Shown: one piece after another, positions 687 through 37,500 of the stretch
Position numbering within the stretch: the stretch's first letter is position 1
Layout: every line of letters starts with the position of its first letter
NCBI RefSeq assembly: GCF_021134715.1
Contig: NC_060024.1
Span: 13,566,974 to 13,630,973, forward strand
Source: Daphnia pulex
Taxonomy: Eukaryota; Arthropoda; Branchiopoda; Diplostraca; Daphniidae
DNA: 64,000 nt
Reading direction: 5' to 3'
Translations under genes and position numbers: made by a program
Notes under the pieces: model-generated
Told to the model about the DNA's origin: nothing
Seen by the model: only the letters and a program-made list of their open reading frames with translations
Databases searched by the model: none

Positions 687-794
687 GCACGTTGATAGTC
701 TGGCTTATTCTGAAATATGGGGTAGTTGGAAGAATTAAGTGCTACAGAATATGGAATTTCTGCAGAGCTGGGTGGAAAAATTGCCGCAACAGTT
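687..794 (+). ncRNA. Intronic H/ACA box snoRNA, family C, copy 1
   Basis: The 5' hairpin is closed by GCAC (687-690) and GTGC (739-742). H box ACAGAA is at 744-749 and the ACA box at 789-791. The base of the 3' stem is weaker here (TATGG against CCGCA) than in the copy at 28549, where TATGG/CCATA pairs perfectly. This copy may therefore fold less well. Confidence 0.7.
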
Positions 795-955
795 TTGAGA
801 AATAACTACAATTGTTCATTTGGTTATTAAGTATGTGTCTAAATATTCTCTTATCTCACAGGTCGTTGAGATGATCTTCACGTATCGAATCGTAATGTGT
901 GGCGTCACCGCTTGTTTATTTTTCCAATCGAATAAAAGCAGGGATTCTGATGCAA

Positions 956-1727: not shown

Positions 1728-2507
1728 TTAATAATAAGAATCAGTGACCATAAATTGCATTCTGATCGATGGTTCAACAGTAGGTGTGTCCGTCGGCATG
1801 TCTGTTATCCCATCCGTAGTACATTCACATTCACAAGGTGCATCTGTAAAATTAGGATCAGTAGTGGGATCCACCGTGGGCTCAACCGGAGAAGTAGCGG
1901 TAGGGTCGACTGTTGTTGTAGGAAACACCGTTGTAGTTGTGAAACTAGTTACCGTGTCTGTAAACGTAATCTCTGACGTTGTTGTTTCAGTTATGATAGT
2001 TGTTACGGGGATCGTTAGAGTGGTTGTGGTGGAAGTTAAAGGACGTGTGGTAGAAGTTAGTGTCTTTGTGGTAGGGACGGTTATTGTTGTACTAATTGTG
2101 GTGGCAGGACGCAGGGTTGTAGTAATGAACTTTGTTGTGGGTACTATAGTTGTACTTGTAATGGTGGTCATAGGGCGTTCTGTAAAAGTTGACGTTTTAG
2201 TGGTTGGAATGGTTGTTGTTTCTCTGACTATGAGTGTAGTCAATTTAGTAATTAGGGTTGTTATAGTAGTGGTTAGCGTGGTGGTGGTGCGTACAGTAGT
2301 AACAGCTCTATTCGAAGGAATTGGTGCGATGGGAACATCGCTAAAGCTGGACCGGATTCTAGGTGAATCGACATTGGCAGAAGTAACGACGGCTATCAAA
2401 ACCGCTAAAATAGCCTGTTTTAAATTCAAAAATTGTCACTGTAATGCAGTCTAAACTAACAGTAGCGAAATGGCGATGAATTAAAATTGGCTTACCAGAG
2501 TCTTCAT
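1728..2507 (-). CDS. Secreted Thr-rich mucin-like protein, copy 1 (about 232 aa)
   Basis: Two coding exons. A 12-nt first exon (2507-2496) encodes MKTL, with donor CTG|GTAAGCC; exon 2 runs 2414-1728 after acceptor AAACAG. The junction gives MKTLAILAVLIAVVTSA, a good signal peptide, which an ORF starting in the intron would miss. The mature protein is mostly Thr with Ile/Val/Pro repeats (TTTTxxxPTTK), followed by a Pro/Asp/Glu tail. This suggests a heavily O-glycosylated extracellular mucin or cuticle/gut-lining protein; no family domain is seen. A TATA-like GGATAAAAAA lies near 2595-2604, with an Inr-like TCAGTGC about 30 nt downstream. The C-terminus runs about 11 residues beyond the copy 2 and 3 stops because the stop codon differs. 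Confidence 0.72.
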
Positions 2508-3405
2508 GTTGATTTGCGTAGGATCGTCTTAACTGTGGAACTAGCCTCCTTGTAACTACGAAGTTGCACTGACTCAATCCGCTTAATGTAATGCTTTTTT
2601 ATCCACCCTGGAAGTTCACTAATGTAAAACTCCATCTGAAAAACTCAAAACATATGTCGGCATTTTTCTCTGTCGAGTTTTGTAAAGTGTTAGCGCTCTA
2701 ATGTCAGCTCGTGTTAAGTAACTGCTGGCGAACTGCTCGAGCATGACACGGATTTCCGACAACTGCGTTGAAACACTTAACTCAGCTGCGTTGTTACTTG
2801 TTACTTGTACAAAATACAGAAAATTCAGGCGCTATGAGGGCCACACGTCATTCGTATTTGTTGTTGGATTCAATCCAATTTTTTGAAGCATTTCGTTTTA
2901 GATGAAACTCCTCCCGATTATTCAGTTTTTATTAGCTGAGCGATTATTGCTGCAGTTTCCCTAGTGTATGGAAATTTTTTTGTGTTATGTTATAGCTACT
3001 TATTTGTAGTTTTTATGTTTTTATAACCCAGAAAACTTCCTGTAGAGCGTCTAACCGACTGTTTATTCTTTAAAGAATTTTGCTAGTAATTTTATAATTC
3101 CCGAATGAAAGAAACTGCGACTTACGCAAGATTCTTTAATTCAAAACTCAAAAGAAATAGATATTTAGGATTCAGCTTATAGGAAGGTGGTAACATTAGA
3201 AGCGCAGACATTTGGTTTACTTTTTAAATGTTGGCAAATCGAATAGAATATAATGTTTATTACCGACCACCCAAAAATTCTTAGTGAAACATCGTCAAGG
3301 AAAAATGACTTAATTGAAAATGTAATATGGTACCGTTAAAACCCCAAAATGTAGAAAATAATAAAAACACGACTAATAGTAGGAATCGGTGATCATAAAT
3401 TGCAT
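2508..3405. repeat. Spacer of tandem duplication unit 1 (mucin array)
   Basis: The spacer upstream of mucin copy 1 is highly similar to 4252-5105 upstream of copy 2. Shared blocks include the promoter region, a segment rich in CTCGAGCATGACACG and the AT-rich stretch before the next stop codon. The duplicated unit is about 1.7 kb and includes gene plus spacer. No separate gene is seen here. Confidence 0.7.
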
Positions 3406-4251
3406 TCACATCGATGGTTGAACAGTAGGGGTGTCCGTTGGTGCGTCTGTTATCCCATCCGTAATACAAGAAGTACAAGGCGCATCTGTAAAATTAGGAT
3501 CAGTAGTGGGATCCACCGTGGGCTCAACCGGAGAAGTAGTGGTAGGATTGATTGTTGTTGTTGATGTCGGAAACACCGTTGTAGTTGTGAAAGTAGTTGC
3601 CGTGTCCGTAAACGTAATCTCTGACGTTGTTGTTTCAGTTATGATAGTTGTTACGGGGAACGTTAGAGTGGTTGTGGTGGAAGTTAAAGGACGTGTGGTA
3701 GAAGTTATTGTCTTTGTGGTAGGGATGATTGTTGTTGTACTAATGGTGGTGGAAGGACGCAGGGTTATAGTAGTGAACTTAGTCGTAGGTATTACAGTTG
3801 TACTAGTAATTGTAGTCGAAGGACGCTCGGTTACAGTGCTGAACTTTGTTGTGGGTATTACAGTTGTACTAATAATTGTGGTCATAGGGCGGGTTGTAAT
3901 AATTGACGTAATTGTGGTTGGAATGGTGGTCGTTTGTTTGATTATAAGTGTAGTCAATTTAGTAATAAGGGATGTTACTGTAGTAGTTAGCGTGGTGGTG
4001 GCGCGTATAGTAGTAACGGCTCTATTCGAAGAAATCGGTGCGATGGGAACATCGCTAAAGCTGGACCGGATTCTAGGTGAATCGATATTGGCAGAAGTAA
4101 CGACGGCTATCAAAACCGCTAAAATAGCCTGTTTTAAATTCAAAAATTGCCATTGCAATGCGAAAAGAAATTAATTTCTAATAAAATCACTTAGTGAAAT
4201 AAAAAGTAGCGAAATGGCGACGAATTAAAATTGGCTTACCAGAGTCTTCAT
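3406..4251 (-). CDS. Secreted Thr-rich mucin-like protein, copy 2 (about 244 aa)
   Basis: Same gene structure as copy 1: exon 1 at 4251-4240 encodes MKTL and exon 2 runs 4128-3406. The signal peptide MKTLAILAVLIAVVTSA is identical. The body is Thr-rich with one more repeat block than copy 1, ending in a TDAPTDTPTVQPSM tail. Coding sequence, intron and about 0.8 kb of flank align with copy 1, so this is a tandem segmental duplicate. The conserved flank holds a TATA-like GGATAAAAAG. The function is inferred only from composition: secreted and probably O-glycosylated. Confidence 0.72.
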
Positions 4252-5105
4252 GTTGATTTGCGTAGGATCGTCTTAGCTGTGGATCTAGCCTCTTCGTAAC
4301 TGGGAAATTGCACTGACTCAGTCCATGAAATGTAAGGCCTTTTTATCCATCCTGAAAGTTCACTAATGCTATGAAAACTCCATTCGAAAAACTGTTACCA
4401 TATGTGGACATTGCTATTCAAAATTTTGTATAATGTTAGCGCTCTAATGTCAGCTCGTGTTAAGTAACTGCTGGCGAACTGCTCGAGCATGACACGGATT
4501 TCCGACAACTGCGTTGAAACACTTATAACTCAGCTGCGTTGTTACTTGTACAAAATACAGAAAATGCAGGCGCTATGGAGGCCGCACGTCATTCGTATTT
4601 GTTGCTGGATTCAATCCAATTTTTCCAAGCATTTCGTTTTAGATGGAACTCTTCGCGATTATTCAGTTTTTATTAGCTGAGCGATTATTGTTGCAATTTC
4701 CCGAGGTTATATCACAGAAAAGATCTTGTAGAGCGCCTAACCGATTGTTTATTCGTTTAAGAATTTCGCTAGTAATTTTATATGAAAGAACTGCGACTTA
4801 TACACAAGATTCTTTAATTCAAAAGAAATAGTCTATAAGGATTCAGCTTATAGGAAGGTGGTAACATTAGAAGCGCAGACATTTGGTTTACTTTTTAAAT
4901 GTTGGCAAATCGAATTAGACAGGATTATTGAGTAGAAATCGAATAGAATATAATGTTTATTACCAACCACCCAAAAATTTCCAGTGAAACATCGTCAAGG
5001 CAAAATGACTTAATTGAAAATGTTATGTGGTACCGTTAAAACCCCAAAATGTAGAAAATAATAAAAACACGACTAATAGTAGGAATCGGTGACCATAAAT
5101 TGCAT
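4252..5105. repeat. Spacer of tandem duplication unit 2 (mucin array)
   Basis: Second copy of the inter-mucin spacer, with small indels relative to 2508-3405. It carries the promoter of mucin copy 2 and the 3' flank of copy 3. No independent coding region is supported. Confidence 0.7.
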
Positions 5106-5815
5106 TCACATCGATGGTTGAACAGGGGGAATGTCCGTAGGTATGTCCGTTGGAACATCCGTTGGCGCATCTGTAATATTAGGATCAGTAATAGGATCCA
5201 CCGTGGGTTCTACCGAAGTAATGGCTGTGGGATCGACTGTAATTGTTGTTGTTGTAGGAATCACCATCGTAGTTGTGAATGTTGTCGTCGAAAAACTAGT
5301 GATTGTTTCAGTAACTGTAGTCTTCGGTCGGGTTGTAGATGTAACAGTCAAAGTGGTAGGAATCGTTTTTGTGCTATCATCAGGTTTATATCAAGAATAT
5401 TCGTGTGAAATTGGTTGATTAACGGTATGATGTAGTGCAGTTACGGTACTACCTAGTTGTTGTGACCACAGGACGGGTTGTAGAAGTAATAATGGTCGTG
5501 GATCCGGGTAAAGTTTTGGTGATGGTGATCGTCTTGTGGACCGTGGTAAAAGCGAGTTTGGTCACAGTTAACGTTTTTGTGCTAGTGGACGTAGTTGTCT
5601 TAGTAGACGAAGCAGGGAAGAGATTAAAAGGATTCACAATAGGAAAAAACTTGCTGGGAATGGTGCTGGGTTGAATTTTAGATGATTCAATGTTGGCTGC
5701 CGAAATACTGGCCACCATCAAAAATAAAATCGCCTATTTTCAGTCAATGTGAATTTAATGAGGCTTTTATACGTTTAAATGCATGAAAGCAAAATTTGAT
5801 TACCAGAGACTTCAT
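5106..5815 (-). CDS. Secreted Thr-rich mucin-like protein, copy 3 (about 186 aa)
   Basis: Most diverged member of the tandem trio. Three coding exons are inferred: 5815-5804 (MKSL), 5733-5453 and 5373-5106. The 79-nt intron between exons 2 and 3 (GTAGTACC...GATAG) contains stop codons but joins the two Thr-rich blocks in frame. Splicing gives the signal peptide MKSLAILFLMVASISAA. The second half has TTTxxxPTTTT blocks and the shared tail TDAPTDVPTDIP. Copies 1 and 2 have no intron at this position. A frameshifted gene is the alternative, but both splice sites are canonical. Confidence 0.62.
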
Positions 5816-19575: not shown

Positions 19576-22500
19576 TCATTGCGTGGAATTGAAGTTGGGT
19601 CTAACCAAGCAATGGCTGTCGTCAACATACCATTTCTGAAGACCTTGGGCTTTCCTTTCCTGCATTGGAGTTTCGTGTAGAGCGGCGCACAAGTTGCAGA
19701 ACGATTCTTTGTTCGTTTGAGGCAAGTTAACTACACGGTAATGAGGCTTCCACCAAAAGAATTCGGCATAAAGGGAATCGTTTTGATCCACTCGCTTCAT
19801 GTACGCCGCAAGTTGACGGGGGCTGTACGCCAGGGCGTCTATGTACGAGTGCTCCGGGGCTATTGCCGAGTAATTGGCTCCCCCCAAAACGATCGGAACC
19901 AAGTTCCTGGCTATTGAGTTGAAAAACTTTTCCGTCACGTACTCACGGCAAATGGAATTTTCAAAAGCCAAATAAAACTTGTACGTTTTCTCGATCATGT
20001 CGTAGCAAAGCTCGTCGTTTTTCAGTTTTGGGCAGAGATCTTTGCCTCCGCATTTCCCCCCGGTGCTTATAATATCCACATCGACATATTTCTGAAGTTG
20101 GCGCACGTATTTCATCCGATTACTTCGAGCGTGACAGTTTGACACCATCCAGATGGCTAACTTGCTTTTTCCTTTGGCTGGGTTGACGTTTGACAAGCGG
20201 ACAGACTCTTGCATGTCACGTCGTTCTGTTTCTCCATTGGGAGCGCTGGCCAGTTGCTCAATCCGGCCGTAAGGCAACGGGATGTCAGATTCGGGAAGAT
20301 AAGTCATCGTCCAGTTGAAATAGTTCTCGAAGGCATCCAAACGAGGCATGTGGTCTGTAAAACCCAAGAAAAAGTTTGATAAATGAATAAATCTCTGTCC
20401 TCAGAAAGAATGTAGACTATGCCACATTATTGTTACGTGTGGGTTTTTCCTATATAGGTTAGAATCTAGACCGCTAAGATTCCAGACAACAGAATTTTCC
20501 ACACGTTTTTTCCATTTACCAATTAACCTGCCTTTATAGTGCAATTTATGGTTTTTTGTCATGCCCACTTGCGCAACAGTGAAAACCCAGTTCGATACAG
20601 AGTGGGACGGAAACCGTTAGTCAATTGTTTTCCATTGTCCAGCAGACGACGCAGTTAATGTCAATTGGATTTTCAAAACGTGTTTTCTGGACCACTTTAA
20701 GTTATCAACGATTGTGATAACTTAAAACTTGTAACAAAAATCTCAATTGCCAAAAATATTAGATACAGGTTTTAATGTTTGTTCTACAAAATCTGTGGAA
20801 TCCTTAAAGTTGAAAGAAAAATTTTAAAAGGATCAATAATGCTGGAAGCAGTACCCTTGATCATCACGGTGATCTTTTCGTTTGTAGTTAAAAATGTATT
20901 TGGTTCTACTGGAGATCGCTCCCAAATGTTCTACAGTTGTGTTAAAGACTGTGTGGAAAAAAACTGTTCAGGTAATATTACAACATTTGCTGTGTTTATG
21001 TGCTGTGGCTATTGTTGAGCTCTCATTCTCAACTATTAATAACAAATACTAGATTCAGCACAAGATTTCCAGTTGTCTCTTCCGTTAAGACTAATGCAAT
21101 GGACATGCTCTGATGAATGCAAATATATGTGTATGTGGCCAACTGTTAACTGGTTTGTTGAAGCTGAAATTGGAGTTCAGCAATTCTATGGCAAAGTATG
21201 AAGCATATACAGATTTTATCATTTATGTAACTAAATTGTAGTTGTATTTTAACAGTGGCCTTTCATTAGAGTCTTGGGTATTCAAGAACCTGCAGCAGCA
21301 TTATTTTCAGTTCTCAATTTAGTTGGCCATGTAGTTATGCTAAGGAAGTTTCGCAAAGAAGTCAATCCTGATGCTCCCTTCTACGTAATCACCCACATTT
21401 TTTGCCTTGTAAGTTTTGTTGTTAAGAAAAGTTTTTGACTTAAACCATTTAGATCTAAGCACATTAACAAAATATATCTAGATATGTTGTCATGCCTGGT
21501 TTTGGTCCAGCCTTTTCCACATCAGAGATGTCCGGTTTACAGAAATTATGGACTATCTGGGTGCATTCAGCATGGTGTCATTTTCTGTCTACCATTTTAT
21601 CATTAGGTAAATCACTATATTCTTACACTTACTATTTGATAATAATTTCATGTTTAATTATTGTACAGATTGACTACTTTGAGACGTTATAGCTCTCTGT
21701 ATTCCTTGTCCTCAGGAATTGCCATAGGATTTTACTTTATTTATCACAGCTACACAACTTTCTTTGTCAAAATGGATTATGGATATAATATGCTCATCAA
21801 CATAGCTTTTGGTAAATGCAGTAACTTTTATTTGCTCCCATATTCGTTACTGAAATGCAACTGGAATTTTATTTAAATTTTTTCATCTTTAAATTCTAGG
21901 TGCAATCAATATTTTGGGGTGGTCAATTTGGTGCTTGAAATTTTACAAGCAAAGACCCTACGTGAAACAGTGCGCAACATTCATTGCGCTGGTTGCCTTC
22001 ACTACGCTATTCGAAGTGCTTGATTTTCCTCCCTTGTTTTGGGTGTTTGATGCTCATGCTCTCTGGCATTTGTCAACTGCACCACTTGCCATTTTATGGT
22101 ACAAGTAAGTAACAGATCTATAATATGATGTATCCCGCATAGTTGATTCACTTGTGTTATGCAGATTTTTGATTGACGATTGCCGTTATTTGGAAGGACT
22201 GAAGATGGATCTCGAAAAATTGGCTTAATTGCGAAGCAATTTCTAATAACATTGAATATATTAGTGCACGCTTGTACGGCCTGAAGTTTAGTACTACTCA
22301 GAAGTTTACCTTTCCTAACGCGCATTTGAGCAGTAGTTCAGCAATCTCATATTCCATAAATCCTGTTGTTCAAGCAAAGTTTCCCCAGTTATTAGCGACT
22401 GTAGAATTACCTGGGGGTTCTGTAGAGAACAGAATGAAAACTTGATCTCGTCGTCGGTTAGGCAAAATCCACGGCCCTTTCCTTTGAGTTGGTCCGTGTA

Positions 22501-22828
22501 TGAGAAAAGCGTCAAAGTTGTAATCCTTCACGTAAGTGTGGTTGGTGGTTAGGATGCAGTTGCTCACCTCACAACCAGCGTTGATGAATCCAACTCGGCC
22601 CATATTGAATCGGAAACCCCAAAGATGAGGATACGTCAGCAGCACTATTTTGGTGTGATTGACGATGGATAACTGCGATTTACTCGGGATAGATTGAACG
22701 AAAGCGCTGCTGTCTAGAGCGTGCGGCACATACATAGATTGTGGCGACAGGTAAGTCATGAAAATGATTGTGGTTGCTAACATTGCAAGAAACGACAGCT
22801 TGATTACTATATTTTTACTTTCCATCAT
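19576..22828 (-). CDS. Alpha-1,3-fucosyltransferase (GT10), 398 aa
   Basis: Two coding exons: 22828-22411 and 20354-19576, joined at CCA G|AC so the protein reads through FSTEPPDHMPRLDAF in frame. It is a Golgi type II protein: short cytosolic N-terminus, signal-anchor LSFLAMLATTIIFMTYL, stem, catalytic domain. GT10 hallmarks are present: NYFNWTMTYLPESDIPLPYG and the C-terminal donor-binding FYLAFENSICREYVTEKFF, then VPIVLGGANY and APEHSYID. It transfers fucose from GDP-fucose to N-glycan core or antenna GlcNAc; core alpha-1,3 versus Lewis-type activity cannot be told. Several Asn-glycosylation sites are present. The 2.06-kb intron contains the complete PGAP3 gene on the opposite strand. Confidence 0.93.
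20839..22228 (+). CDS. PGAP3: Post-GPI attachment to proteins factor 3 (Per1-like), 321 aa
   Basis: Seven exons: 20839-20971, 21053-21195, 21256-21408, 21482-21606, 21669-21811, 21900-22104 and 22165-22228; all phases close and the length matches human PGAP3 (320 aa). There is a signal peptide, then a Cys-rich luminal head (FYSCVKDCVEKNCSG, LMQWTCSDECKYMCMWPT) and seven membrane segments of the CREST hydrolase superfamily. Conserved His/Asp positions include the HAWFWSSLFHIRD segment and the C-terminal DAHALWHLSTAP. It removes the sn-2 acyl chain from GPI anchors in the Golgi during fatty-acid remodelling. The gene lies wholly inside the fucosyltransferase intron on the other strand. Start is the ATG giving the hydrophobic leader MLEAVPLIITVIFSFVV. 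Confidence 0.95.
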
Positions 22829-25242: not shown

Positions 25243-25900
25243 ACGCACAGTCAAAGGTGGTGTATTATTATTTCCCTTTTTTGCGTGTGGCCTTTTGTTA
25301 TTTGTTGGGTTTTAAATATTGAGACTACGCAATGAGTCATCAATCCGTTCCACATTGAAGATAATTCAATTTAGTTGCTGACTCAAGGGAAATTTTTCAT
25401 CAAATCTTTCGAGTTTTTTGTTTACTTTTTACTGTTTCTGAAACCGCTTAAATGTTCCACTGGAACATGCTGCGCTAGTCACTAGATGATAGTTCATTAG
25501 TAATAAAACTGCATTCAATTATTCGCACTTGCAGGAATGAGGCGAAATAAATAAATTTCACATTTGAAATTTGGAGTGCAGTTACCGCGCCGATTTACAC
25601 ACAAAAGATCAGTAAGCACAGTTGCCAGTTGCCAAAAAGTGAAGTGATCGCTCAAATTGGTCGGTCTTTCTTAATGAATATGGCAACGTTTTCCGCAGTC
25701 CAGTTCCAGATATTAGGTTAACCGTCAAGTTAGCCTTGAGAAAGTCTATAAATAGTCTCGTCACTTGATATTCAAGCATGGTCAAAATTTTGAACAAGAG
25801 TTTGAGCTGCATGTGCCGAAGAAGCAATTGGAAAATGGTGTGAGATTTCGAATATGTAATTTGCAGGTAATTTGGTTTCAATTAATTTGCAGTGTCCAGT
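25243..25900. other. Intergenic, probable promoter side of the second snoRNA host gene
   Basis: No gene seen. The transcription start of the right-hand snoRNA host gene must lie in or just after this stretch but could not be placed. Confidence 0.35.
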
Positions 25901-26054
25901 ACTGTTTTGTTGTTACTTAAATAAATGTTATCTTTTTTAAGGGAAATTATTTTCAAGATGGTATGATCTTTGTGCAGCAGAAAATCTGAAGCAACTTCAT
26001 CTGTGAATGTGAGGTAAGATTTTGAATTCCTTGAGTGGTCACAATAATTTAAAC

Positions 26055-26124
26055 GGGATGAACCTTAAAATGTCTTGATAGGAATTGCCGTCTGATTATC
26101 TATTGATGATTTTTACTTCTGATT
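26055..26124 (+). ncRNA. Intronic box C/D snoRNA, family 1, copy 1
   Basis: Box C-like GGGATGA (26055-26061), D' CTGA (26092-26095), C' TGATGA (26104-26109), D CTGA (26119-26122). The possible antisense element before D' (CTTGATAGGAATTGCCGT) is identical in the copy at 27194. It ends 65 nt before the next acceptor. Predicted to guide 2'-O-methylation; target unknown. Box C has one mismatch here but is perfect in copy 2. Confidence 0.75.
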
Positions 26125-26337
26125 TGAGTTTTATATCCAAGTTTCTTCTCTGTTGACTCTGTTTCTAACTTGTTGTTTTTTAACTACAGGTTAGATAATC
26201 TAGCTACAGGTTTATCTGGATGCTAGTCTTTGAGAGGTCAGCTGGCTGCCTTCGTTGGGAATTCTTTGGGTCTTCCGATAGAACCAAGCTAAAGGTATAT
26301 TGATTTGGGAGGCTTATTGCTTGAGATGTTCCTTCAC

Positions 26338-26434
26338 ATGATGTTGTAATTTGCGACTGAGGCTTGGTTCTGCTGGACATGCCTGCATCCATTATGGTAG
26401 ATCTTGCTCTTTGTTGATACTGTGCTATCTGATA
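26338..26434 (+). ncRNA. Probable intronic box C/D snoRNA, family 2, copy 1
   Basis: C-like ATGATGT (26338-26344), D' CTGA (26357-26360), TGATA as a weak C', and D CTGA (26429-26432). About 97 nt are strongly conserved with 27455-27551 while flanks are not. It ends about 77 nt before the next acceptor, the usual C/D position. Boxes are imperfect, so the class assignment is tentative. Confidence 0.5.
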
Positions 26435-26611
26435 CCCAAATGATTGGGTTTGTCTTAATGATATCTTAGGATATTGGCTAGCAAATTTTTACTAATGTTC
26501 ATTATCTTTAGGTGTAGTTGTATGGTTGTGGCAATAAGCTTCTGGTCTCTGAGGATGCCTGGATGCAAGTCTGCAGTTGAGGTAAGGTTTGTTTTTACTC
26601 GTTTCACATAT

Positions 26612-26739
26612 GCATCGTCGATTAGTGATCTCTCTCCATTTTGGGGTTTCACATTTGCAACGGCGCTAGATCAATGCTGTACGTACCAGCTGGTGACTTT
26701 ATTCAATGAGGTGCACCTTCTAGAATACTACTGACACCC
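26612..26739 (+). ncRNA. Intronic H/ACA box snoRNA, family D, copy 1
   Basis: 5' hairpin GCATCG/CGGCGC (one mismatch), H box AGATCA (26668-26673), 3' hairpin with inner CTGGTG/GCACC pairing, ACA box 26734-26736. It ends 57 nt before the host exon at 26797. Copy 2 is at 27716. Confidence 0.75.
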
Positions 26740-26887
26740 CTTTTAAGATCTCACTTGTGGACTTGTTTTGTAACTGCTGATTTTAAACATTTGCAGATGA
26801 TTTATTCTCAAATAAAAATGGCACCTTCGTTTCCCTACCGACTGCTAGTTTCAAGGTGGGTGAGTTTCATTGGTTCGTTTTTGTTTC

Positions 26888-27015
26888 CGAGAATCTTACC
26901 CCACCATTGCAATCTGTCGTTGATTGGTGTTTGAAAGTTCTCGTAGATAAAAGTGGAATATTCATCCACTGAATGATCTCCGTGTTCATATCGGTCAGAT
27001 TTTATTCCAACAGTT
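26888..27015 (+). ncRNA. Intronic H/ACA box snoRNA, family A, copy 2
   Basis: CGAGAA/TTCTCG stem, H box AGATAA (26945-26950), TGGAATA/TATTCCA stem, ACA box 27010-27012. Sequence is nearly identical to 140-267. Confidence 0.85.
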
Positions 27016-27193
27016 TTCTTTCTAGTATTTTTTCGTTTGCCATGAATTGGTTTAGATTCTCCTGTTCTTTTTTTCCAGGGTTTCACCTAATGATACTTTC
27101 AACATATTTAATGGAATTCTTTGTTGAGGGATTGATGGATTTCATTGTTTGAAATGGTAAGGGATTTTTATGTAATAGGGCCTAGCTTGCTGA

Positions 27194-27264
27194 ATGATGA
27201 ACCTTAAAATGTCTTGATAGGAATTGCCGTCTGATCACATTGATGATTTTTTATTTCTGAAACA
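27194..27264 (+). ncRNA. Intronic box C/D snoRNA, family 1, copy 2
   Basis: Perfect box C ATGATGA (27194-27200), D' CTGA (27231-27234), C' TGATGA (27241-27246), D CTGA (27257-27260). The guide segment before D' is identical to copy 1. This is the clearest C/D candidate in the window. Confidence 0.82.
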
Positions 27265-27454
27265 TATTTTAGTGTGATATTTTGTCATTGCACTACCGGT
27301 TTCTAACCTGCTTTTTCTGCTACAGGTATGGTTGGGTGACTTACTGCAAGTTTCTTAATATAACTGACACTGGCTGCCTTTTTGGTGTTAAGGAAGTAAC
27401 GACTTGAGGTATGTTCACGTGAGGAGTAGGAAGTTGTTCGAATTATTCTTTCAC

Positions 27455-27551
27455 TTGATGTTGTAATTTGCGACTGAGGCTTGGTTCTGCTGGACATGCC
27501 TGCGTCCATTATGGTAGGTCTTGCTCTTTGGTGATAGTGTGCTATCTGACT
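27455..27551 (+). ncRNA. Probable intronic box C/D snoRNA, family 2, copy 2
   Basis: C-like TTGATGT (27455-27461), internal CTGA near 27473, TGATA, and D CTGA (27546-27549). The core is almost identical to 26338-26434, so it is under constraint or recently duplicated. Box C is degenerate. Confidence 0.5.
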
Positions 27552-27715
27552 GACACCTTATCGATATTCTCTATGTGTTTGATTGTATGTTGACTGATTT
27601 CGGTTTCATTCTCTATGTGTTGTCAGGTAGTCTTGGGAATCATACCTCAGTGCCTGAGGAAGCCTGGATCGTCTGCTCTTGAAGGTGAGGTATTGTTTTA
27701 ATTCATTTACTATAT

Positions 27716-27843
27716 GCATCGTCGATTAGTGATCTCTCTCCATTTTGGGGTTTCACATTTGCACCGGTGCTAGATCAATGCTGTACGTACCAGCTGGTGA
27801 CTTTACTCAATGAAGTGCACCTTCTAGAATACTACCGACAACT
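27716..27843 (+). ncRNA. Intronic H/ACA box snoRNA, family D, copy 2
   Basis: GCATCG/CGGTGC closes the 5' hairpin fully. The single difference from copy 1 restores pairing. H box AGATCA is at 27772-27777 and the ACA box at 27838-27840. Confidence 0.8.
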
Positions 27844-28000
27844 TAATAAAATCTTAATTGGGGATTTGTTTTTTAACTTTTGAATTTTTAACGATTGCAG
27901 GTGATTTATTTTCGGGCTTGAGCTGATGCACATGGTGTCTTGTTTCCATATCGACTGCTTGCTTCAAGGTAGGCGACTATTTTTACTTCTTTGTTAATTT

Positions 28001-28128
28001 CGAGAATCTTACCCCACCATTGCAATCGTTCGTTGATTGGTGTTTGAAAGTTCTCGTAAATAAAAGTGGAATATTCATCCACTGAATGATCATCGTGTTC
28101 ATATCGGTCAGATTTTATTCCAACATGT
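28001..28128 (+). ncRNA. Intronic H/ACA box snoRNA, family A, copy 3
   Basis: CGAGAA/TTCTCG, H box AAATAA (28058-28063), TGGAATA/TATTCCA, ACA box 28123-28125. The H box differs among copies but always fits ANANNA. Confidence 0.85.
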
Positions 28129-28287
28129 TCTTTACGAATCTTTGTGACGATTAGCTGGCGTGAAGAGATTGGATTTTAACCTTTATTTTCTGTCGTTAGT
28201 GCGTTCGTCGCTTCAAGGCTTCTGGCTCCGTCGTGTCGGTTTTTTCACTTGCGTCGCTAGGTACGTTTCTTTTTCGCTTCATCCCTT

Positions 28288-28408
28288 TGAGATTAGCACA
28301 CTTTGCATTCTTGTGGATGTCGAGTTCTATTCATCTCGCAAATTATCCTCCGTATCTAACGCGTCCTCTGTGATCGTAGCGTTGGGCGGTTTAGATTCGG
28401 ATACATTT
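28288..28408 (+). ncRNA. Intronic H/ACA box snoRNA, family B, copy 2
   Basis: TGAGAT/ATCTCG stem, H box AAATTA (28340-28345), 3' hairpin with AACGC/GCGTT, ACA box 28403-28405. Same order and spacing as at 427-547. Confidence 0.82.
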
Positions 28409-28548
28409 CGAAAACTTTTTATTGTTTACTTATTTTGTTTTTACTATTCGTATAGGGTTAACAAGGAACTGAAGCTGTCGGTCAACAGCAGGATCGATGC
28501 GTGTGGCCTGGTTCGCTAGGTACGTTTGCGTCAGTAATTGAAGAAATT

Positions 28549-28656
28549 GCACGTTGATAGTCTGGCTTATTCTGAAATATGGAATAGTTGGAAGAATTAA
28601 GTGCTACAGAATATGGAGTTTCTGCAGAGCTGAGTGGAATTATTGCCATAACAGTT
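28549..28656 (+). ncRNA. Intronic H/ACA box snoRNA, family C, copy 2
   Basis: GCAC/GTGC stem, H box ACAGAA (28606-28611), TATGG/CCATA 3' stem, ACA box 28651-28653. It lies in the last host intron, as in the left copy. Confidence 0.75.
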
Positions 28657-28815
28657 TTGAGAAATTCCTACATTTGCTTGCTTGAATTATACAATTCATT
28701 TGGCTAAATATTTTTCATTCACATAGGTATTTGGAAAATGGCCGTAGGTTCCAATCGTGATGTAGTATTCGTAATGTGTATGGACTCGTTTGAATAAACC
28801 TGTTTTGCTGAAATG

Positions 28816-30495
28816 AAATTCGATTGTCTAGTTTTTATTTTATCACGGGTTCATTAGTGGGAAAAGTCTGCCATAACATTTAAGCCAATATCGGCATCTT
28901 GCAATGGTGTTCTTAAACGGAAACGCGCGTGTTTCGTGGTAAGAAAATAACTGAGTCCCTCATTGCCAAGCAATAAATGTCGTCATATTCAGTTTAGTTA
29001 CTTGAAATGAAACGGTAGCAGAACATGTGATAACAAAAGCACACCATTCAGATGAGATGATTTAAGTGATATGGAGTGGTGCGTCTGCTATGAATTTTGC
29101 GGTGTTGTATTTTGGCTATTTTCTGTTATAGTGAATGTTGAAGAGTATGAAGACGTTTAGCAGGCTAACAGCTTGCCATTCTGGCAGCTTCATCCTCATA
29201 TAAGCTGCTTAGTTGATTGTCTCTTGTTGAAGTTGTTTTATTGGGTGAGTTAACTTTTTAATTTCGAAAAGGTAGCACGACTAGCCATGTGCAAACATTT
29301 CTGCTTTTTTCTATTGTGAGCATATTTCTGGTGCTAACTTTACCTTCTTTAATAATACTTTATATGATCTCAGCTGGCTTTAAAATCAACACAAGAAGCA
29401 TCATTGGATATGTTTGCCTGATGAGAAGACAATTTCTATAGCACTCCCTTGACAAATTGTGAAGAAAGATCTACAAGTTACAAGAATACAAAATTGATGT
29501 ATGTACATGACTCATGACTCATGATTCATTTTTTAAAAATGAAACAACTAATACATTCTGAAGAACATTTTTTACAATTTGACAGAGTGATACCTGATAA
29601 CTCCTTTCATAACACTCATTCGATAGTTCTGCCTTAAAACACCCTGAAAAGAAATCATGTTTGAGTAAGTAAGGTGATTTTCTCTTTGCCATCCTCATCA
29701 GAACGAGTAAATTTCTGAATTTCTTTTTAGAAATCCTGTGGTCATTCAGAAAACACATGTGTGGTGATGGCTATCAATCACCGATTTCATCATGTATTCC
29801 GGTATTCCCCATCTTCCATGTTTTCTGATTGTAACTCAGGGATACGTAACTAAGTGTAAGTTCATTGCTCTTTTATAATTTCTACCCCCTGAATTAATGG
29901 TGTGTGTATTTGAATTTTCAGTTGAGTGAAGTGAAGCCTTTTGGAGCTGTTGATGGCCGGAAGTCTGTAACTACCCAACACGAGGTCACTAGGTTCTCAC
30001 TGTCAAATAGAACTATGCAAGCGGCAGTTGCAGACTTTGCAGACCCCCCAAGATCTCCTGGCCGTTCCTTGTGCCGATTTAAAGCAAGTCCCTGACTATC
30101 ATCAGATATATCATCAAGGATCAAAACATGTACTTTGGTTGAGACCAGATAATTGAGACCCGCGGATTACAGAGAGACGTTACCAATGACTTGTGGAGTT
30201 TATTACCAACATCGTCAAGACTAAACCGATTTATAATAGTGGGTAAGTGTAAAATTTAATTTGTTGTACAGCAACCGAGGAGTGGAAACGCGTAAAGTGA
30301 CCCCTAATAGAAGATATTCGTACTGCAGGACAAATGTCATCATGTTGTTGATGACGGAGAGAAAGCTAGAGTCGTACACTCGTAGGTTACTTTAGAATGT
30401 CTTAAGTTAAATTTAGGTATTTTTTCAACATGTTCCAACTGATGCAGTGTTTATTAATTATTTTTCAATTACCATTATAGAGTTCAACCTGCAGA
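28816..30495. other. Intergenic, low support for any gene
   Basis: AT-rich. A short open block at 29921-30095 (+) follows an acceptor-like TTTTCAG and encodes ADFADPPRSPGRSLCRFKAS; its complement is also open. It could be an isolated exon or transposon remnant. Nothing else is supported. Confidence 0.35.
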
Positions 30496-30499
30496 CGGG

Positions 30500-31040
30500 C
30501 CGGCCAGTTTGCATGTCCTTCACGTTTGAAGGTCACGGGGATCATTCCGTAACAATAACTGTCATGCGGTGGTGTAGAGGTTGGGTGAGAATCGTGCAGT
30601 GGTGTAGAGGTTGGGTGAGAACGACACGTGTTGCAATCATTATGAAACAGGTATAATAGCCGCAAGGCTCAGCCATTTGATATTCATTTTGATATTTGTT
30701 GTTGTAGACCCATCCCCAGCAACGCCAACCTAAAGAAGAAAAGGCCAGTTTGCATGTCTTTCATACTCGAAGGTCAAGGAGATCATTACTTAAAACGTGC
30801 CATGCAGTGGGGTAGAGGTTGGGTGAGAACGACACGTGTTCAACTGTTACATAGCCATTTGGTATTCATTTTGATATTGGTTGTTGTAGACCCATCCCCT
30901 GCAGAAGGAAAGAAAATTTTTCTTCACTTTCGAAGGTCACGGAGATCATTTCGTAAAATGTGTCATGTGGTGTAGAGGTTGGGTGAGAACGGGACGTGTC
31001 GCATCATTATCAAGAAGGTAAAATAGCCGCAAGGCTTAAA
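30500..31040 (+). repeat. Degenerate direct tandem repeat, about three units
   Basis: Three diverged units of roughly 120-240 bp starting near 30500, 30741 and 30926. Each contains a GAAGGTCAxGGxGATCAT block and the motif GTAGAGGTTGGGTGAGAACG. That motif occurs four times (near 30572, 30604, 30810 and 30971). Later blocks such as TAGACCCATCCCC are also shared. Units differ by indels, so the array is old. Its function is unknown; it lies immediately upstream of a TATA promoter. Confidence 0.7.
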
Positions 31041-31063
31041 AGGTGAAGGGATAAAAAAAATAG

Positions 31064-31100
31064 TATAAAAGGAGAGAAAAAAGGCGGTGGAAAATCAGTC
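31064..31100 (+). promoter_or_regulatory. TATA + Inr core promoter of the Tyr/Thr-repeat locus
   Basis: TATAAAAGG at 31064-31072 and TCAGTC at 31095-31100, about 33 nt from TATA to initiator A. It precedes the ATGG|GTAAAT first exon. Confidence 0.65.
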
Positions 31101-31129
31101 GAGTGAGGATCTCCGACACGTCAACAACT

Positions 31130-31564
31130 GCAGCGTACTATTTGTCATCAACAGGATTATTCATCGTGAAATCATGGGTAAATATTCTGTTTTTATATGG
31201 AGCTTTGTTTTAATGAAACTTACTATTTGTAAATATTCCTGTTATTAATAAATATTAATGTTTAAATTTATAAGTTTTCTAGTTAATCATGGTGTCGTTG
31301 ATGGCTGGGTCGACCAATGGTGTACCGATGTCTCCTGGGTATGGAGGATTCCAAACCGTAACGCCGCCGCCTTACTTCTCAACAACAACATACGAAACAA
31401 CCGGTACTACATCACCAAGGCTCCAGGGTACCACCACATCTTATAATACCCCGAGCTACTACACCGAAGCCCTGAAGTATAACTCTGCCCCGAGCTACAC
31501 TACCAAAGAGCCGGAGTACCAAAGAGAGTTCTTTTTTTCAACAACTGGATTGTTCATCGTTTAA
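31130..31564 (+). pseudogene. Decayed Tyr/Thr 'YYTEAP' repeat gene, unit 1
   Basis: The first coding exon would end ATGG|GTAAATATT (near 31173). The second exon holds recognisable YYxTKAP and PSYYTEALKYNSAPSYTTKE segments in different reading frames: the first frame ends at a stop after ITKAPGYHH, and the other motifs are offset. Repeats of this type are common in Daphnia-like secreted Tyr-rich (cuticle/egg-shell-like) proteins; that family memory is approximate. An intact TATA promoter precedes it. Frame loss suggests a pseudogene, though unrecognised splicing could rescue it. Confidence 0.5.
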
Positions 31565-31569
31565 CCAGT

Positions 31570-32640
31570 TCATAATTATGGGTAAATATTATATTTTTTA
31601 CATTGAATTGTGTATCAATCATACTTTTTCTATTTGTTAATTTACCATTGAATATTAATGTATAAACTTTTTCATTGCTTAGCCAACTATAGCGTCGTGC
31701 TGCTGTTGGGCGTTGTATGACTGGGTCGACCACTGGTGTTCCGATGTCTCCTGGGTACAGCGGTTAGCCGGATAGCAAACGCCGCCGCTCTACTACACAA
31801 CAACAACTTTAACAACCAGTTACTACGCCGAGGCCCCCAAGTACTACACCACTAAGGCGTCGGAGTACCATAACTTACGCTTCGCCGAGCTACTACACCG
31901 ATGCCCCGAATTATTACTCTGCCTCGAGCTACACCAACAAGACAGCGGAGTACTACACGACTACGTATGCTGTCCTATCTGACAACACCGAGTCTCCAGC
32001 TACTACACCGAGTCTCCAGCTACTACACCGAGTCTCCAGCTACTACACCGAGTCTCCAGCTACTACACCGAGTCTCCAGCTACTACACCGAGTCTCCAGC
32101 TACTACACCGAGTCTCCAGCTACTACACCGAGTCTCCAGCTACTACACCGAGTCTCCAGCTACTACACCGAGTCTCCAGCTACTACACCGAGTCTCCAGC
32201 TACTACACCGAGTCTCCAGCTACTACACCGAGTCTCCAGCTACTACACCGAGTCTCCAGCTACTACACCGAGTCTCCAGCTACTACACCGAGTCTCCAGC
32301 TACTACACCGAGTCTCCAGCTACTACACCGAGTCTCCAGCTACTACACCGAGTCTCCAGCTACTACACCGAGTCTCCAGCTACTTTCTCGACCAAAACGG
32401 GCGAATACTATACCGAAGCGCCCAAATACTACTCTGCCCCGATCTACACAGCCTCAACTGAGACGGTCGAGCATTACGCAGCCCCGACGTACTACACAGA
32501 AGCTTCTCCTTCCCACTACGTTGAACAGAAATGCTGTACTGATTCTCCAGTTTACTACACCCCAAACGGGATTTTTGTTCAAATTTGTCGGTTATATTTT
32601 AATAATTGGCAGTCATCGATATTTGATTGTGGACGTTTGA
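31570..32640 (+). pseudogene. Decayed Tyr/Thr 'YYTEAP' repeat gene, unit 2
   Basis: A partial duplicate of unit 1: the ATGG|GTAAATATT first exon and the GGGTCGACCA..GGTGT exon start are both repeated. YYAEAPKYYTTKASEY, PSYYTDAPNYYSASSY and, after the minisatellite, GEYYTEAPKYYSAPIY are each readable but in conflicting frames. One break lies near 31868 and another across the 20-bp repeat. An in-frame TAG also interrupts the start of this unit near 31767. Confidence 0.5.
31991..32380 (+). repeat. Perfect 20-bp minisatellite, 20 copies
   Basis: The unit agtctccagctactacaccg is repeated without variation. The AGTCTCCAGC half occurs 20 times from 31991 to 32380. Because 20 is not a multiple of 3, translation cycles through three frames (YYTESPA, TTPSLQL, LHRVSS), none with a stop. 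Lack of divergence implies recent expansion. There are no unique spacers, so it is not a CRISPR array. Confidence 0.95.
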
Positions 32641-33161
32641 TGAGAAAATAAATTAATTGCGGGTAACTACCTTGTAAGACTTCCCTTAATACCTTTAAAC
32701 CTTTCGGCGACAGATGTTCCTATTTTGGAGGCAGCTTCTTTAGTCGCTCTCCATACGGACATATCCTGGTCTTTGGACGGAATTCTGTTTCAGGGTAAGT
32801 TACGAAAGAAACGTACTGTTGAGTGTTTAATATCAACAGTTTTGTACTTTACATTTAGGATGGCGTAACAAAGGAGTTCATGGCAGCCATTGTGTATGCC
32901 TGTTTGGATCCTTAGCAGAAATTTATTGAAAGAGGAGATGTCTTCATAAGTAATAGCCAAGTGTGTTTATGCATAAAGTAAAACTTCAAAGTTGTAACAA
33001 ATATATTATTTTAATTGATAAACTTTACTTTGTTATAAATAACTCAGACACAATGAACATAAACATGAAAAGGAATTGCTTTATTTTCCCACCTCCACCC
33101 ACAATTCCTCCACTTTTTACAATCACACATATACATACAATCATACATACATACACTTAAG
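32641..33161. other. Intergenic, no gene seen
   Basis: A short exon-like segment at about 32714-32798 and another at 32860-32912 have splice-like edges but no recognisable product. The stretch ends in a TACATA-rich microsatellite. Confidence 0.35.
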
Positions 33162-33165
33162 TTAA

Positions 33166-33426
33166 CCCGTTGGCTGCCACGCCATACAACCCGTAGGTTG
33201 CACTCTACTACTCTACGCGCCACGTCTTAAGGATCCATGACCAAGGTGGGACTTGCCATTGCTGACAAGTCCGTGCTGACAAGGGGGGACTAAGGTGCAT
33301 TGCCTGTTAACAGGCGCCTTGCGGCAGATTTTGGGCTTGGCGACTCTCCGACCCCGCGGCTTGTAAACCACGAGACCGAACAGCGCGGCCCGTGCAGGGG
33401 AGAACAAAGGCGTGGCAGCCAACGGG
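33166..33426. mobile_element. piggyBac-type MITE (261 bp)
   Basis: Perfect 18-bp terminal inverted repeats, CCCGTTGGCTGCCACGCC (33166-33183) and its reverse complement (33409-33426). They are flanked on both sides by TTAA (33162-33165 and 33427-33430). TTAA target duplication plus CCC termini is the hallmark of piggyBac-superfamily elements. The GC-rich interior has no transposase ORF, so it is non-autonomous. TIRs without mismatch suggest fairly recent insertion. Confidence 0.88.
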
Positions 33427-33687
33427 TTAACTAACACAGACACAAACATATTACCAACAACACATGATGATCCGCGATGACATTTTAGAGATACCGGCGA
33501 CGTTTTGGTGTCCATCTTCTCGACGTTTCCTCTGCTTCACCTGAATAAAGAGAAAACAATTCTTATTTAGTGACATGCCATAAAAGTTACATAATACAGA
33601 TGGAAAAAAGGTTTTTTAGCTCAAAGATTTAAAGAAGCAATTTTTTTAACTTAAAATCAAGCTTGCAATATTGCGAACTGTACGCAG

Positions 33688-34076
33688 AACAAAGCTCACT
33701 TGCTAGTTTTTTGAAAATTTTCCGGAAGTAAACCGGAAGTAACCACAGCGCCTCAACCATTGAGCTGTCGTCAAATTAAATCACATATTCGTGATCTCCA
33801 TGAAAAATGGGGTCGATTAGGTGTGATTTAAACGAAATCCAAAATTTGGCCAAAATCGAGAATTTTCCTGAACTATAGTTCAGGAAAATTTTCGAAACCG
33901 GAAGTACGAAAACGTAAAAAAGATAACATGAACTTTACTAAAAATTCGACGAGGATCACGAATATGTGGTTCTTTTGCTCCTCAGATGAATATTTACTGA
34001 ACTACTGAGTGAAATGAGCAAACCGGAAGTAGAAAAAAAAATGCAAATATCGAAAATTTAACAAGTGAGCTTTGTT
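33688..34076. mobile_element. Fold-back / palindromic MITE-like element (389 bp)
   Basis: 15-bp terminal inverted repeats AACAAAGCTCACTTG (33688-33702) and CAAGTGAGCTTTGTT (34062-34076). A second inverted pair, CACATATTCGTGATC and GATCACGAATATGTG, lies inside, with a perfect 30-bp palindrome in the middle (33861-33890, core CTGAACTATAGTTCAG). ACCGGAAGTA is repeated three or four times in one orientation. No coding capacity and no clear target duplication. Confidence 0.7.
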
Positions 34077-34233
34077 GTCGGGATAGTTATCGTCAGTTTT
34101 CATTGAAAAATTTCCACACAATAGCTGCCGATAAATTTTTAAAGAGTTTGCAAAGTAACTGAAACTGACTGTTTTAACAGCTGACAATTATCGAAAAGCC
34201 ATCTAGCGTTAGAAAAAAGAAACGCTTCTAAGT

Positions 34234-34587
34234 CTAAGTAACACTTCCGCGGAAGAAGGGCCTGATTTTGGAATTATTGACAGAGTTTAACGCAAATAAA
34301 TTACTAGTAGATAATCTACGAAAATAAGTCAATTGTCCGGTACCTGGCCATAATCCCGTGGTGAGTGACTGTAGGTGTGTCACAGCAACTGAAGTGATCC
34401 AACTCACAAAGAAAGCAAGAAAAGTTGTGTAGCAGGCTAGCAGCATAAGAAGCACTGAAGTAGTGAAGCTGGATGAGCGTACGTCTTGAAGATAAGGATG
34501 GAGAAAGAACGTTGGTGGAAATCCCTCTTCTGTCATGGACAAATCCAGCATTGGCTCAAGGATGTCCGTGGGGATCTTACGTGCTCT
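34234..34587 (-). CDS. Possible exon of an unknown minus-strand gene
   Basis: A run of about 115 open codons after an acceptor TTTTTTACAG (near 34588) reads ARKIPTDILEPMLDLSMTEE, then a hydrophobic stretch VLLMLLACYTTFLAFFVSWI that could be a membrane helix. No upstream exon was assigned and no family is recognised. It may be a real terminal exon or a relic. Confidence 0.28.
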   Translation of the reverse strand, partial: RARKIPTDILEPMLDLSMTEEGFPPTFFLHPYLQDVRSSSFTTSVLLMLLACYTTFLAFFVSWITSVAVTHLQSLTTGLWPGTGQLTYFRRLSTSNLFALNSVNNSKIRPFFRGSVT

Positions 34588-37500
34588 GTAAAAAATGTGT
34601 TACATTAATGAAAATATAAAGATTAAAAAAGCATATCAATCTTTACATTTTCTAAGAAGCACACTGAAATGTTCATGATGAAAAACCTTAGTAATGGAAT
34701 TACAGCAAACAACCGCATTACTCCTCAGGTGGGATAAATTTCCTGATTTTAAAGAAACTGTTATGAAGTATTACAGTAACATGGTGATAGGTGATTTTGA
34801 CGAGCTTACCTTTTTCATGTGGGTGATGATTTAGTAAGGCATCTGATGTGGCGTGGTATGTGTTGTAGCAGTAATGGGAAATCCACACATTTGTATTCCA
34901 CTATATGTGTGCTTCAAACATGGGTTTTAGGCTTTTGACAGCATGAGGATCTAATGGATGGAAAGTGACTGAGTGCTAAGTCAGCAACTTGTTGCGATGA
35001 CTGACAGTAGCTATGCATCTAAAATTTGAAGAAATAAGTTGGTATAATATGAACATAATGAACCTAGGTTAAGATAAACCTACTTATAAAGATATGAAGT
35101 TCAATTTGGTATTTTAAATCACAGGAATATAAGTATAATTAGCAACAATTTGTTTCGCCCATTTCGTCTCGTTTCATGACGTAGGAACAACAAGAATGAC
35201 AGTAGCGACATCTGGTAATGAGTTTTGAATCTTATGTCAGTTGCACATTCAAACGTAATGCGTCGTCTGCAACTGAAGCAGATGCCGTAATCAATACTAG
35301 ATGTCACTTTCAATAGAAGTTGTCAATAGTCAGCGGTAGATGGCATATAAATGTAAAACTTTTTGTGGCGCGCGGCATTCAAAACATTATCGTGAAAGTG
35401 TAACAATCACGGCAAATACTTACACTTGCATACCGACTTCCAGGGAGATTCAAAACACTGTTTTTAAAAATCGTAAAGCATTTCCCTAAGTTTGAACTAA
35501 TAATATCATATACGTATTTCGGTTGGACTGTTTGTTTTACACTGAACGACTTTTCCTCACAAGACAATCAAACCAATTCATTCGGGCATACGTTTAAACG
35601 GAAGATTCAAAATTATTTCGTGATGTTAACGATCATTTCGAAAAAAATTGAGAAAAACAATAGGAAAAATTAATAATTAATCGTATAAGGCGATTACAAA
35701 AAAATGACAACACGCTAAAATCACAGAGAGTATTATTTGTAATTTAGAGTAAACATAGCAGCGAGTTATCACCGGCGACGGAGGGCCGTGGAACCTAATT
35801 GCGAGGTCGGTTCAAAAAAGGAGAAAACTGTAAAATCGAAATGAATTCGTCGAGAAGACAGAGTGAACGCTTCCACGGCCAATCAGGGCTGATGTGAGCC
35901 ACTAGGAAACACGTTTGTCGTGAAGCCATCTGTGTCATCGAGCTGTGTTGATTCTAGCCAATTGAAAGTTTTCCTTTGGCAGCAGTAGCAGGAGCGCAGG
36001 AGGAGAAGCAGTGCTGGCCCGTCCGTGGAGAAGTTGTCGATGCACGAGAGCGAAAAGGAGGCTCGAATGTAATCCTCGATGCTGCGTTTAAAGCGAGAGT
36101 AATCCAATTCCAGTTTTTGCTGCTGTCTTCGATGATACTTTGGGAGCTGGAAAGAGCAGCAGGACAAGCGCAGCAGTAGCAGCAGCAACACAGTGGCGAC
36201 GGGTCGCCAGTCTGTTGACTTGATTATTATTCCGAGCGTCCGACAACGATGACGACCGACTATACAACAGAGAGTCGAGTCGCTCAATCGGATTAGACCC
36301 TCGTAGCCCGTCCCTAAAGCGTCCAAAAGCGTCCTCCTCGTCCGCACCAGCAGCCAGCATCCAGCATCCAGCAGCAGCCAGCAGTAACCGGGGTGGGGGG
36401 GACAAAAAGTCTGCATAAACGCACGCATCGCTGCCATTGGATAAACACACAACTTTGAACGCTGCTGAATGCTCCTGGCTACAAAGCAGACAAAACAAAA
36501 AAAGGGGGGAAATCTAAAAAAGAAAGGGAAGAAGAAGACAGACGGAATATACAAATCCTTTTTGGATTTTACGGAACGAGTCTTAATGCTGTTAGGTGAC
36601 GAGACCAAATGGCGTCTCCTAATCGAATCAAGGCCTCGTCGGCAAAAGAGCTTGCTCTGCCAACCTCGTTAGCTCTCGTTAGCCACGTTTTATCCGACGC
36701 TAAGCAAACACGAGCCGGACGAAAATCCAGCCCTCCCTACCCCTAGCTACCCTCCATTTTGCAGGAGAGCAAACACCTCAGTTTTCCGCTTCGAATCCAC
36801 TCAACGCGCCCGCACAAGACCCGCCAGTCTGAGCCCCCCAAAGTCGTCGGGACTTTTTCCCCCTTTTTTTCTTATTTTCTTATTTTACGACGGCGCATCC
36901 GACGCCCAACGAAGAAGGAAAAAAGATTCCCGGCTCCTAACTGGGCCGTCATTAAACGCCAGAGAAAAAGTTGGCATGTTTTGTTGCATCTTCTTCTTGT
37001 GTTTGACGCCGACGGCTGCTGCTGCTCCTGGATGTCACATCAAAGTTGGGTCGTTGATGTTGGTCCAATCAACTCCCTGCTGTCTGCCCATTTCATTAGC
37101 ATAATGCAAGCTCGTTCATGCATCTGTTTAACCTTCGCCCGACGCCCCAAGACTGGGCAGAAGAAGAAAAAGTGATCCAGCGGAATCGGAATGTTGTAGC
37201 TGCGAGGCGACGGCCGTTTTTTTGGGGTTGTTATTATCGTCCGTTGAAAAGTCGATGCTGAAAAATGACGGCCATCATTCGAGTCAAGTGACGATCCGAG
37301 TCACGACAATTGAAAAGGGAAGAATATTAGACGCAGCACGCAGCGAAATGACGAGAGATCAATCCGGCGAAAGAGATCCGTCGTCGTCCAGCAGTTGTCT
37401 GATAGTCGTGACAAAAACTCCGCCCATTTGGAAGCGAGTCGCCCACGGGATTGGAGCGAGACGGGACAAAGCTCTGCCACTCTACTGGCTGGCCTTCATC

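Follow-up and report, generated by a model that had tools for sequence, protein, structure and literature searches.

Host genes whose introns carry small nucleolar RNAs (snoRNAs) of both the C/D and the H/ACA class are already known. In human, the introns of SNHG12 yield SNORA44, SNORA61, SNORA16A, and SNORD99 (PMC7154078). In Drosophila, the 3' cluster of mfl (dUhg6) is made up of one H/ACA RNA, four C/D copies, and two copies of another small RNA (PMC1821038), and Uhg1 to Uhg8 are further arthropod hosts with snoRNA clusters (PMC13228274). The present analysis concerns a 64-kb stretch of the Daphnia pulex genome (C8:13566974-13630973, hereafter the window; coordinates without prefix are window positions) and one gene within it. 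Judged from its DNA, this gene is very probably a non-coding snoRNA host gene with ten intronic snoRNAs, a duplicated four-snoRNA block, and three gene copies.

The likeness to SNHG12 lies in a non-coding host with intronic H/ACA and C/D RNAs; in the available part of its description, four snoRNAs are named, against ten in Daphnia, and a duplicated block is not mentioned. The mfl cluster, as far as the available part of its account goes, also has one small RNA per intron, duplications are invoked for it, and its C/D RNAs lie about 70 nt from the 3' splice site. In contrast, the mfl host is protein-coding and the snoRNAs are other ones. These likenesses, that to Uhg1-Uhg8 included, are ones of description. 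The literature searches brought up no title devoted to snoRNA host genes of Daphnia, which says little given the partial coverage. Mixed hosts being known, the interesting detail here is the guide of C/D-1, the RNA that opens each block.

Structure and copies of the probable host gene

Sequence reading and paralog comparison identify ten GT-AG introns with one snoRNA-like core each. The order along the gene is C/D-1, C/D-2, D, A, then the same four again, then B and C, where A to D are H/ACA RNAs. Direct repeats at 1104-1139 nt spacing (families D1-D5) connect the first block (a) with the second (b). Two relatives covering most of the gene length exist in the genome, on the same chromosome, and the three copies span about 103 kb of chromosome C8. 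G2 (C8:13666228-13669080) is 97% identical and has the same ten snoRNAs; G3 (C8:13566250-13567787) is 87% identical and holds a single block of four snoRNAs together with B and C. The layout comprises 12 exons and 11 introns, intron 0 being the only one without a snoRNA:

25747-25754, plus strand, TATA box (TATAAATA)
25777-25837, plus strand, exon 1, start approximate (placed by TATA distance); donor ATG|GTGTGAG; matching exon in G3
25838-25977, plus strand, intron 0, GT-AG, without snoRNA; kept in G2 with a 7-nt indel
26014-26189, plus strand, intron 1, GT-AG
26295-26511, plus strand, intron 2, GT-AG
26582-26796, plus strand, intron 3, GT-AG
26856-27078, plus strand, intron 4, GT-AG
27157-27325, plus strand, intron 5, GT-AG
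27409-27626, plus strand, intron 6, GT-AG
27685-27900, plus strand, intron 7, GT-AG
27969-28199, plus strand, intron 8, GT-AG
28261-28455, plus strand, intron 9, GT-AG
28520-28726, plus strand, intron 10, GT-AG
28727-28815, plus strand, last exon, 3' end approximate; AATAAA at 28793-28798
1-814, plus strand, 3' part of G3, cut by the window edge (H/ACA-A 137-267, B from about 426, C from about 683); 88% identical to 27850-28676

An initial annotation of this DNA had described a mixed C/D and H/ACA host gene in which a block of four snoRNAs is duplicated. Its ten introns and their order are recovered, GT-AG ends and box letters being read back at the listed coordinates, and the paralog comparison supports the description as a whole. 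Its gene start, 25950, has to be moved upstream, to the TATA box and exon 1 that precede intron 0. The TATA letters at 25747 and the letters TATAAATAGTCTYG are common to the window gene, G2, and G3. A 5' terminal oligopyrimidine (5'TOP) or TCT start is common in snoRNA host genes; the TATA box is conserved, and a pyrimidine-rich stretch was seen, by eye, in G3 only. The spliced exons contain no conserved open reading frame (ORF), the longest ATG-initiated ones reaching 55 aa in the window gene, 55 aa in G2, and 34 aa in G3, as in a host gene with non-coding exons.

In the proposed mechanism, a TATA-promoted, non-coding transcript would be spliced, as the conserved splice sites suggest, and polyadenylated. 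From each of ten introns, one snoRNA would be freed by splicing and subsequent trimming. The two SNORD49-like and two SNORD16-like C/D RNAs would then direct 2'-O-methylation of ribosomal RNA (rRNA) through their D' elements, and the six H/ACA RNAs (two copies each of D and A, single copies of B and C) would be expected to guide pseudouridylation. The exons would carry no selected product. An internal duplication would have doubled the four-snoRNA block, and the gene as a whole would have multiplied to three copies.

The snoRNA cores stand out from their surroundings by a conservation far above chance. Identity counts ignore gap columns (23 in the C/D-1 core, for a vs. b and a vs. G3) and exclude G2, which is nearly identical to the window copy. 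Between blocks a and b, the cores of the four families are 94.3% identical (400 same and 24 different among 424 aligned sites) and the remainder of the same introns 57.7% (194 same, 142 different, 336 sites; Fisher p 2e-35). Block b plus B and C compared with G3 gives 95.6% in the cores (661 sites) against 76.7% in the intron remainder (498 sites; Fisher p 4e-22), and block a compared with G3 gives 94.3% against 56.9%. Exons are 76.4% identical between the window gene and G3 (471 sites, seven exons) and 64% between blocks a and b (127/198 sites, three exon pairs). For H/ACA-B alone the contrast is small, 93.5% in the core vs. 88.3% in the remainder. The earlier claim that snoRNAs are kept between copies while exons drift holds, with cores at 94-96%, exons at 64-76%, and intron remainders at 57-77%. 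Conserved islands amid drifting introns, together with drifting exons, match what is predicted for a snoRNA host gene.

All six introns compared in G3 keep GT-AG ends, as do 10 of 11 in G2, where the acceptor of intron 1 has changed from CAG to CAA, with an alternative AG five bases downstream. G2 sits in a segmental duplication, at C8:13.666 Mb, that is 93-96% identical to 25536-34972 and interrupted at 32104-32262. Over 27636-28835, the window and G2 show 6 differences in 1200 bases; the stretches to the left are 96-98% identical, and a second near-identical stretch covers 29136-29435. The tract 27636-28835 may reflect recent gene conversion. Free intron sequence differs more between blocks a and b (57.7% identity) than between block b and G3 (76.7%, including introns 9 and 10), so that, if a clock is assumed, the internal duplication would predate the separation of G3, a copy that has then probably lost its block a. 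This ordering is drawn from the unequal divergence of three sequences, without an outgroup, and faster drift of block a could also be the cause of the a-b divergence.

The predicted intronic C/D and H/ACA RNAs

The C/D RNAs of the window are as follows:

26051-26127, plus strand, C/D-1 copy a, SNORD49-like, outer ends approximate; C 26055-26061 (GGGATGA), D' 26092-26095, D 26119-26122
26334-26434, plus strand, C/D-2 copy a, SNORD16-like; C 26338-26344, D' 26357-26360, D 26429-26432
27190-27265, plus strand, C/D-1 copy b, outer ends approximate; C 27194-27200, D' 27231-27234, D 27257-27260
27451-27553, plus strand, C/D-2 copy b; C 27455-27461 (TTGATGT), D' 27474-27477, D 27546-27549

The C boxes of C/D-1 copy a and C/D-2 copy b are off consensus. 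In all ten C/D copies of the three genes, 65-79 nt separate the end of the D box from the 3' splice site (from the mutated acceptor in G2 intron 1), close to the optimal distance of about 70 nt given in the available part of the mfl study (PMC1821038). The C/D assignment is strong because of the boxes, the conserved D' guides to known 18S methylation sites, and this spacing. A covariance search, suggested in the initial annotation, returned snoRNA families below threshold but with the same guides, namely SNORD16 and Afu_514 for C/D-2 and SNORD49, SNORD65, and snoR77Y for C/D-1. C/D-2 reaches 21.4-22.7 bits with SNORD16 (RF00138, gathering score 45) and C/D-1 17.7-27.5 bits with SNORD49 (RF00277, gathering score 37). 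The likeness to these two families resides in the D' guide letters and the boxes; the differences are the scores under the cut-off and one base of the C/D-1 guide.

Guides were matched to yeast 18S and 25S rRNA, with 55 known 2'-O-methylation (Nm) sites and 20,000 letter-shuffled guides. Yeast was chosen because intact Daphnia rDNA was not found in the assembly and the rDNA of metagenome-assembled genomes (MAGs) was divergent. Indeed, a conserved 18S 3' pattern had 0 matches in the assembly, which contains one short piece of 18S and three of 28S, 73-90% identical. A genome scan gave five MAG contigs, of which the three searched carry eukaryotic rDNA, and two scans of viral contigs found no eukaryotic rRNA.

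The D' guide of C/D-2, TTGTAATTTGCGA, lies directly before D' and forms 10 Watson-Crick pairs with yeast 18S. By the D+5 rule it points to A436, which we take to be human A484, the known methylation site of SNORD16. Its score was equalled at any of the 55 sites by 16/20,000 shuffled guides, and the guide is nearly intact in the Rfam alignments to SNORD16 and Afu_514. The top-scoring match of C/D-2, a 17-bp pairing to yeast 25S near 3264, was set aside: it extends into the C box and falls in a region that we take to lie outside the conserved core. Its 0/300 shuffle figure was replaced by the 20,000-shuffle site test. SNORD16-like guide matches beyond the array (3/8) do not resemble C/D RNAs by eye.

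The C/D-1 guide, AUAGGAAUUGCCGUC, differs by one base from the SNORD49 consensus guide, AUAGGAAGUGCCGUC, in the Rfam alignment, and the differing base is common to all seven C/D-1 copies found. Two of the seven stand outside the array, one near a carboxypeptidase gene and the other just past a KOW-domain exon that is read as RpL14. Genome matches to AGGAANTGCCGTCNGA number 13. The 7 T-type ones have C, D', and D boxes as well as a C'-like one; in two of them, those of block a, the C box departs from consensus. A scripted box test found C box and D in 7/7. The other 6, of the consensus G type, belong to one repeated coding-like sequence without C box (L029-L032, L040, L053), in which the consensus guide and D box letters, AGGAAGTGCCGTCTGA, occur outside any snoRNA. 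The idea of separate canonical SNORD49 genes beside the derived set was rejected on this context, and three non-T-type near matches inspected by eye do not resemble C/D RNAs either. As far as the genome sequence goes, the SNORD49 lineage in Daphnia is changed as a whole.

The H/ACA RNAs of the window are the following:

26607-26737, plus strand, H/ACA-D copy a; H AGATCA 26668-26673, ACA 26734-26736; weak fold
26885-27015, plus strand, H/ACA-A copy a; H AGATAA 26945-26950, ACA 27010-27012
27713-27843, plus strand, H/ACA-D copy b; H 27772-27777, ACA 27838-27840
27998-28128, plus strand, H/ACA-A copy b; H AAATAA 28058-28063, ACA 28123-28125
28286-28409, plus strand, H/ACA-B; H AAATTA 28340-28345, ACA 28403-28405
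28545-28656, plus strand, H/ACA-C; H ACAGAA 28606-28611 or overlapping AGAATA, ACA 28651-28653

H-like and ACA boxes are in place in all window copies. Minimum-energy folds compared with shuffled sequences gave z scores of -2.1 and -2.0 for A and -2.75 for B, with -4.3 for the G3 copy of B. The H/ACA assignment may be taken as good for A and B, moderate for C and, judged by folding, weak for D. A pair-keeping test lends mild support: among 10 H/ACA comparisons, three gave P values of 0.012, 0.007, and <0.001, and seven gave 0.083-0.53, the outcome for a diverged copy at locus L010 varying with direction. This copy (L010 3158-3039, minus strand) is a relative of H/ACA-C, with an AP-3 sigma-like exon (Pfam below cut-off) 1.5 kb away on the same strand. 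Together with the C/D-1 relative past the RpL14-like exon, it is a supporting relative of the array elsewhere in the genome.

Alternative readings

Two readings of C/D-1 bear on its changed guide. That the family serves solely the ancestral SNORD49 site (28S Cm4456, C2879 of yeast 25S), the 18S complementarity being accidental, seems to us evenly balanced between true and false. SNORD49A/B are indeed assigned to Cm4456 (old Cm4426) in the available part of the source (PMC9941101). The Daphnia guide retains GCCG, with a Watson-Crick pair to the target C at D+5, and GATAGGAA, and an upstream TGATAG, which pairs with 28S only, is the same in five aligned C/D-1 sequences and seven contexts. The duplex with 28S is also the stronger (-20.6 vs. 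-17.5 kcal/mol with 18S; for the consensus guide, -19.2 and -13.6 kcal/mol). Yet, against the 28S target CGGCUCUUCCUAUC, the Daphnia guide has two adjacent mismatches, at positions 6 and 7, where the SNORD49 consensus has only one, internal. With 18S GCGGUAAUUCC it forms 11 unbroken pairs, including two G-U, and D+5 falls on U578 of yeast 18S, presumably human U627, equalled at a known site by 15/20,000 shuffles. Of the two G-U pairs, one, at position 5, lies exactly at the nucleotide to be methylated. In a plain best-match test the result is weak, as 22/300 shuffles paired equally well somewhere in rRNA (23/300 on the divergent MAG rRNA). These observations leave room, with rather low probability, for the proposal that one guide base, AGGAAGUGCCGU to AGGAAUUGCCGU, has retargeted the SNORD49 lineage or made it bifunctional, with unbroken pairing at 18S U578/U627 and much of the 28S pairing kept. 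None of 41 one-mismatch genome matches to a SNORD65-like guide has full C/D boxes (a C box no more than one base off, CTGA as D', and a further CTGA downstream); ten have a C-box-like stretch, and one of these ten (L077) also has a downstream CTGA but ATGA at D'. Because of this, the C/D-1 family may be the sole guide for the 18S site.

As to the locus as a whole, several results weigh against the host gene reading. No Rfam match at gathering score was found for the ten RNAs in the stretches searched. Five of the six D-box guides have best rRNA scores equalled by 191-294 of 300 shuffles; the other, that of C/D-1b (14/300), gives an AT-rich pairing near 213 of yeast 18S that is not trusted. On divergent MAG rRNA, the A484 pairing of C/D-2 is absent and 158/300 shuffles do as well. 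The H/ACA-D folds are no better than shuffles (z +0.2 and -0.6), that of C is modest (z -1.55; G3 copy -0.71), and neither family shows two-sided pair changes. When guide pockets were searched against yeast 18S/25S and part of a human 28S, known yeast pseudouridines made up 10/353 predicted sites vs. 44/1379 yeast uridines; because they are not enriched, no H/ACA target is claimed. The argument of the initial annotation that a base difference restores pairing in H/ACA-D fails too, the change being one-sided: 0/31 predicted pairs are altered on both sides, block a has A.C where block b and G3 have A-U, block b has U.C at another pair, and each block type thus breaks a different pair. That some elements, H/ACA-D above all, belong to a different type of conserved intronic RNA (orphan or regulatory) would fit the folds, a 3' half without clear basal stem, and the lack of a supported target. 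We nevertheless consider it clearly unlikely, as H and ACA stand in the right order in a 131-nt core with a weak Rfam match to SNORA35 and a conservation equal to that of the other cores. Very improbable is a decaying cluster left by copies of a once active host gene. The mutated acceptor of G2 intron 1, the off-consensus C boxes, the loss of 4 nt from D in block a of G2, and, in the G3 copy of D, ATA where ACA is expected point that way, but cores remain at 94-96% while neighboring sequence drifts to 57-77%, and almost all splice sites are intact.

Other features of the window and biological meaning

Elsewhere in the window, a 186-aa ORF contains a tandem repeat, 31982-32384, whose 20-bp period is almost perfectly kept (shifted copies are 99.4-99.7% identical). 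Segments 1729-3591 and 3374-5279 are duplicated in tandem, offset by about 1.7 kb, in pieces 84-89% identical. On the minus strand, 19576-22828 contains reading frames of 263 and 152 aa that, on visual inspection, resemble a fucosyltransferase gene.

Since none of the ten RNAs reaches Rfam gathering thresholds, genomes of this sort probably have more snoRNAs than their annotation shows. The three paralogs of the host gene amount to an experiment run by nature, with exons and intron flanks drifting around guides that do not change. For the shift of a guide between 28S and 18S sites, the single altered base of the SNORD49 guide offers a concrete and cheap test case; if the shift is true, the seven C/D-1 copies may do two jobs, one on 18S and one on 28S.

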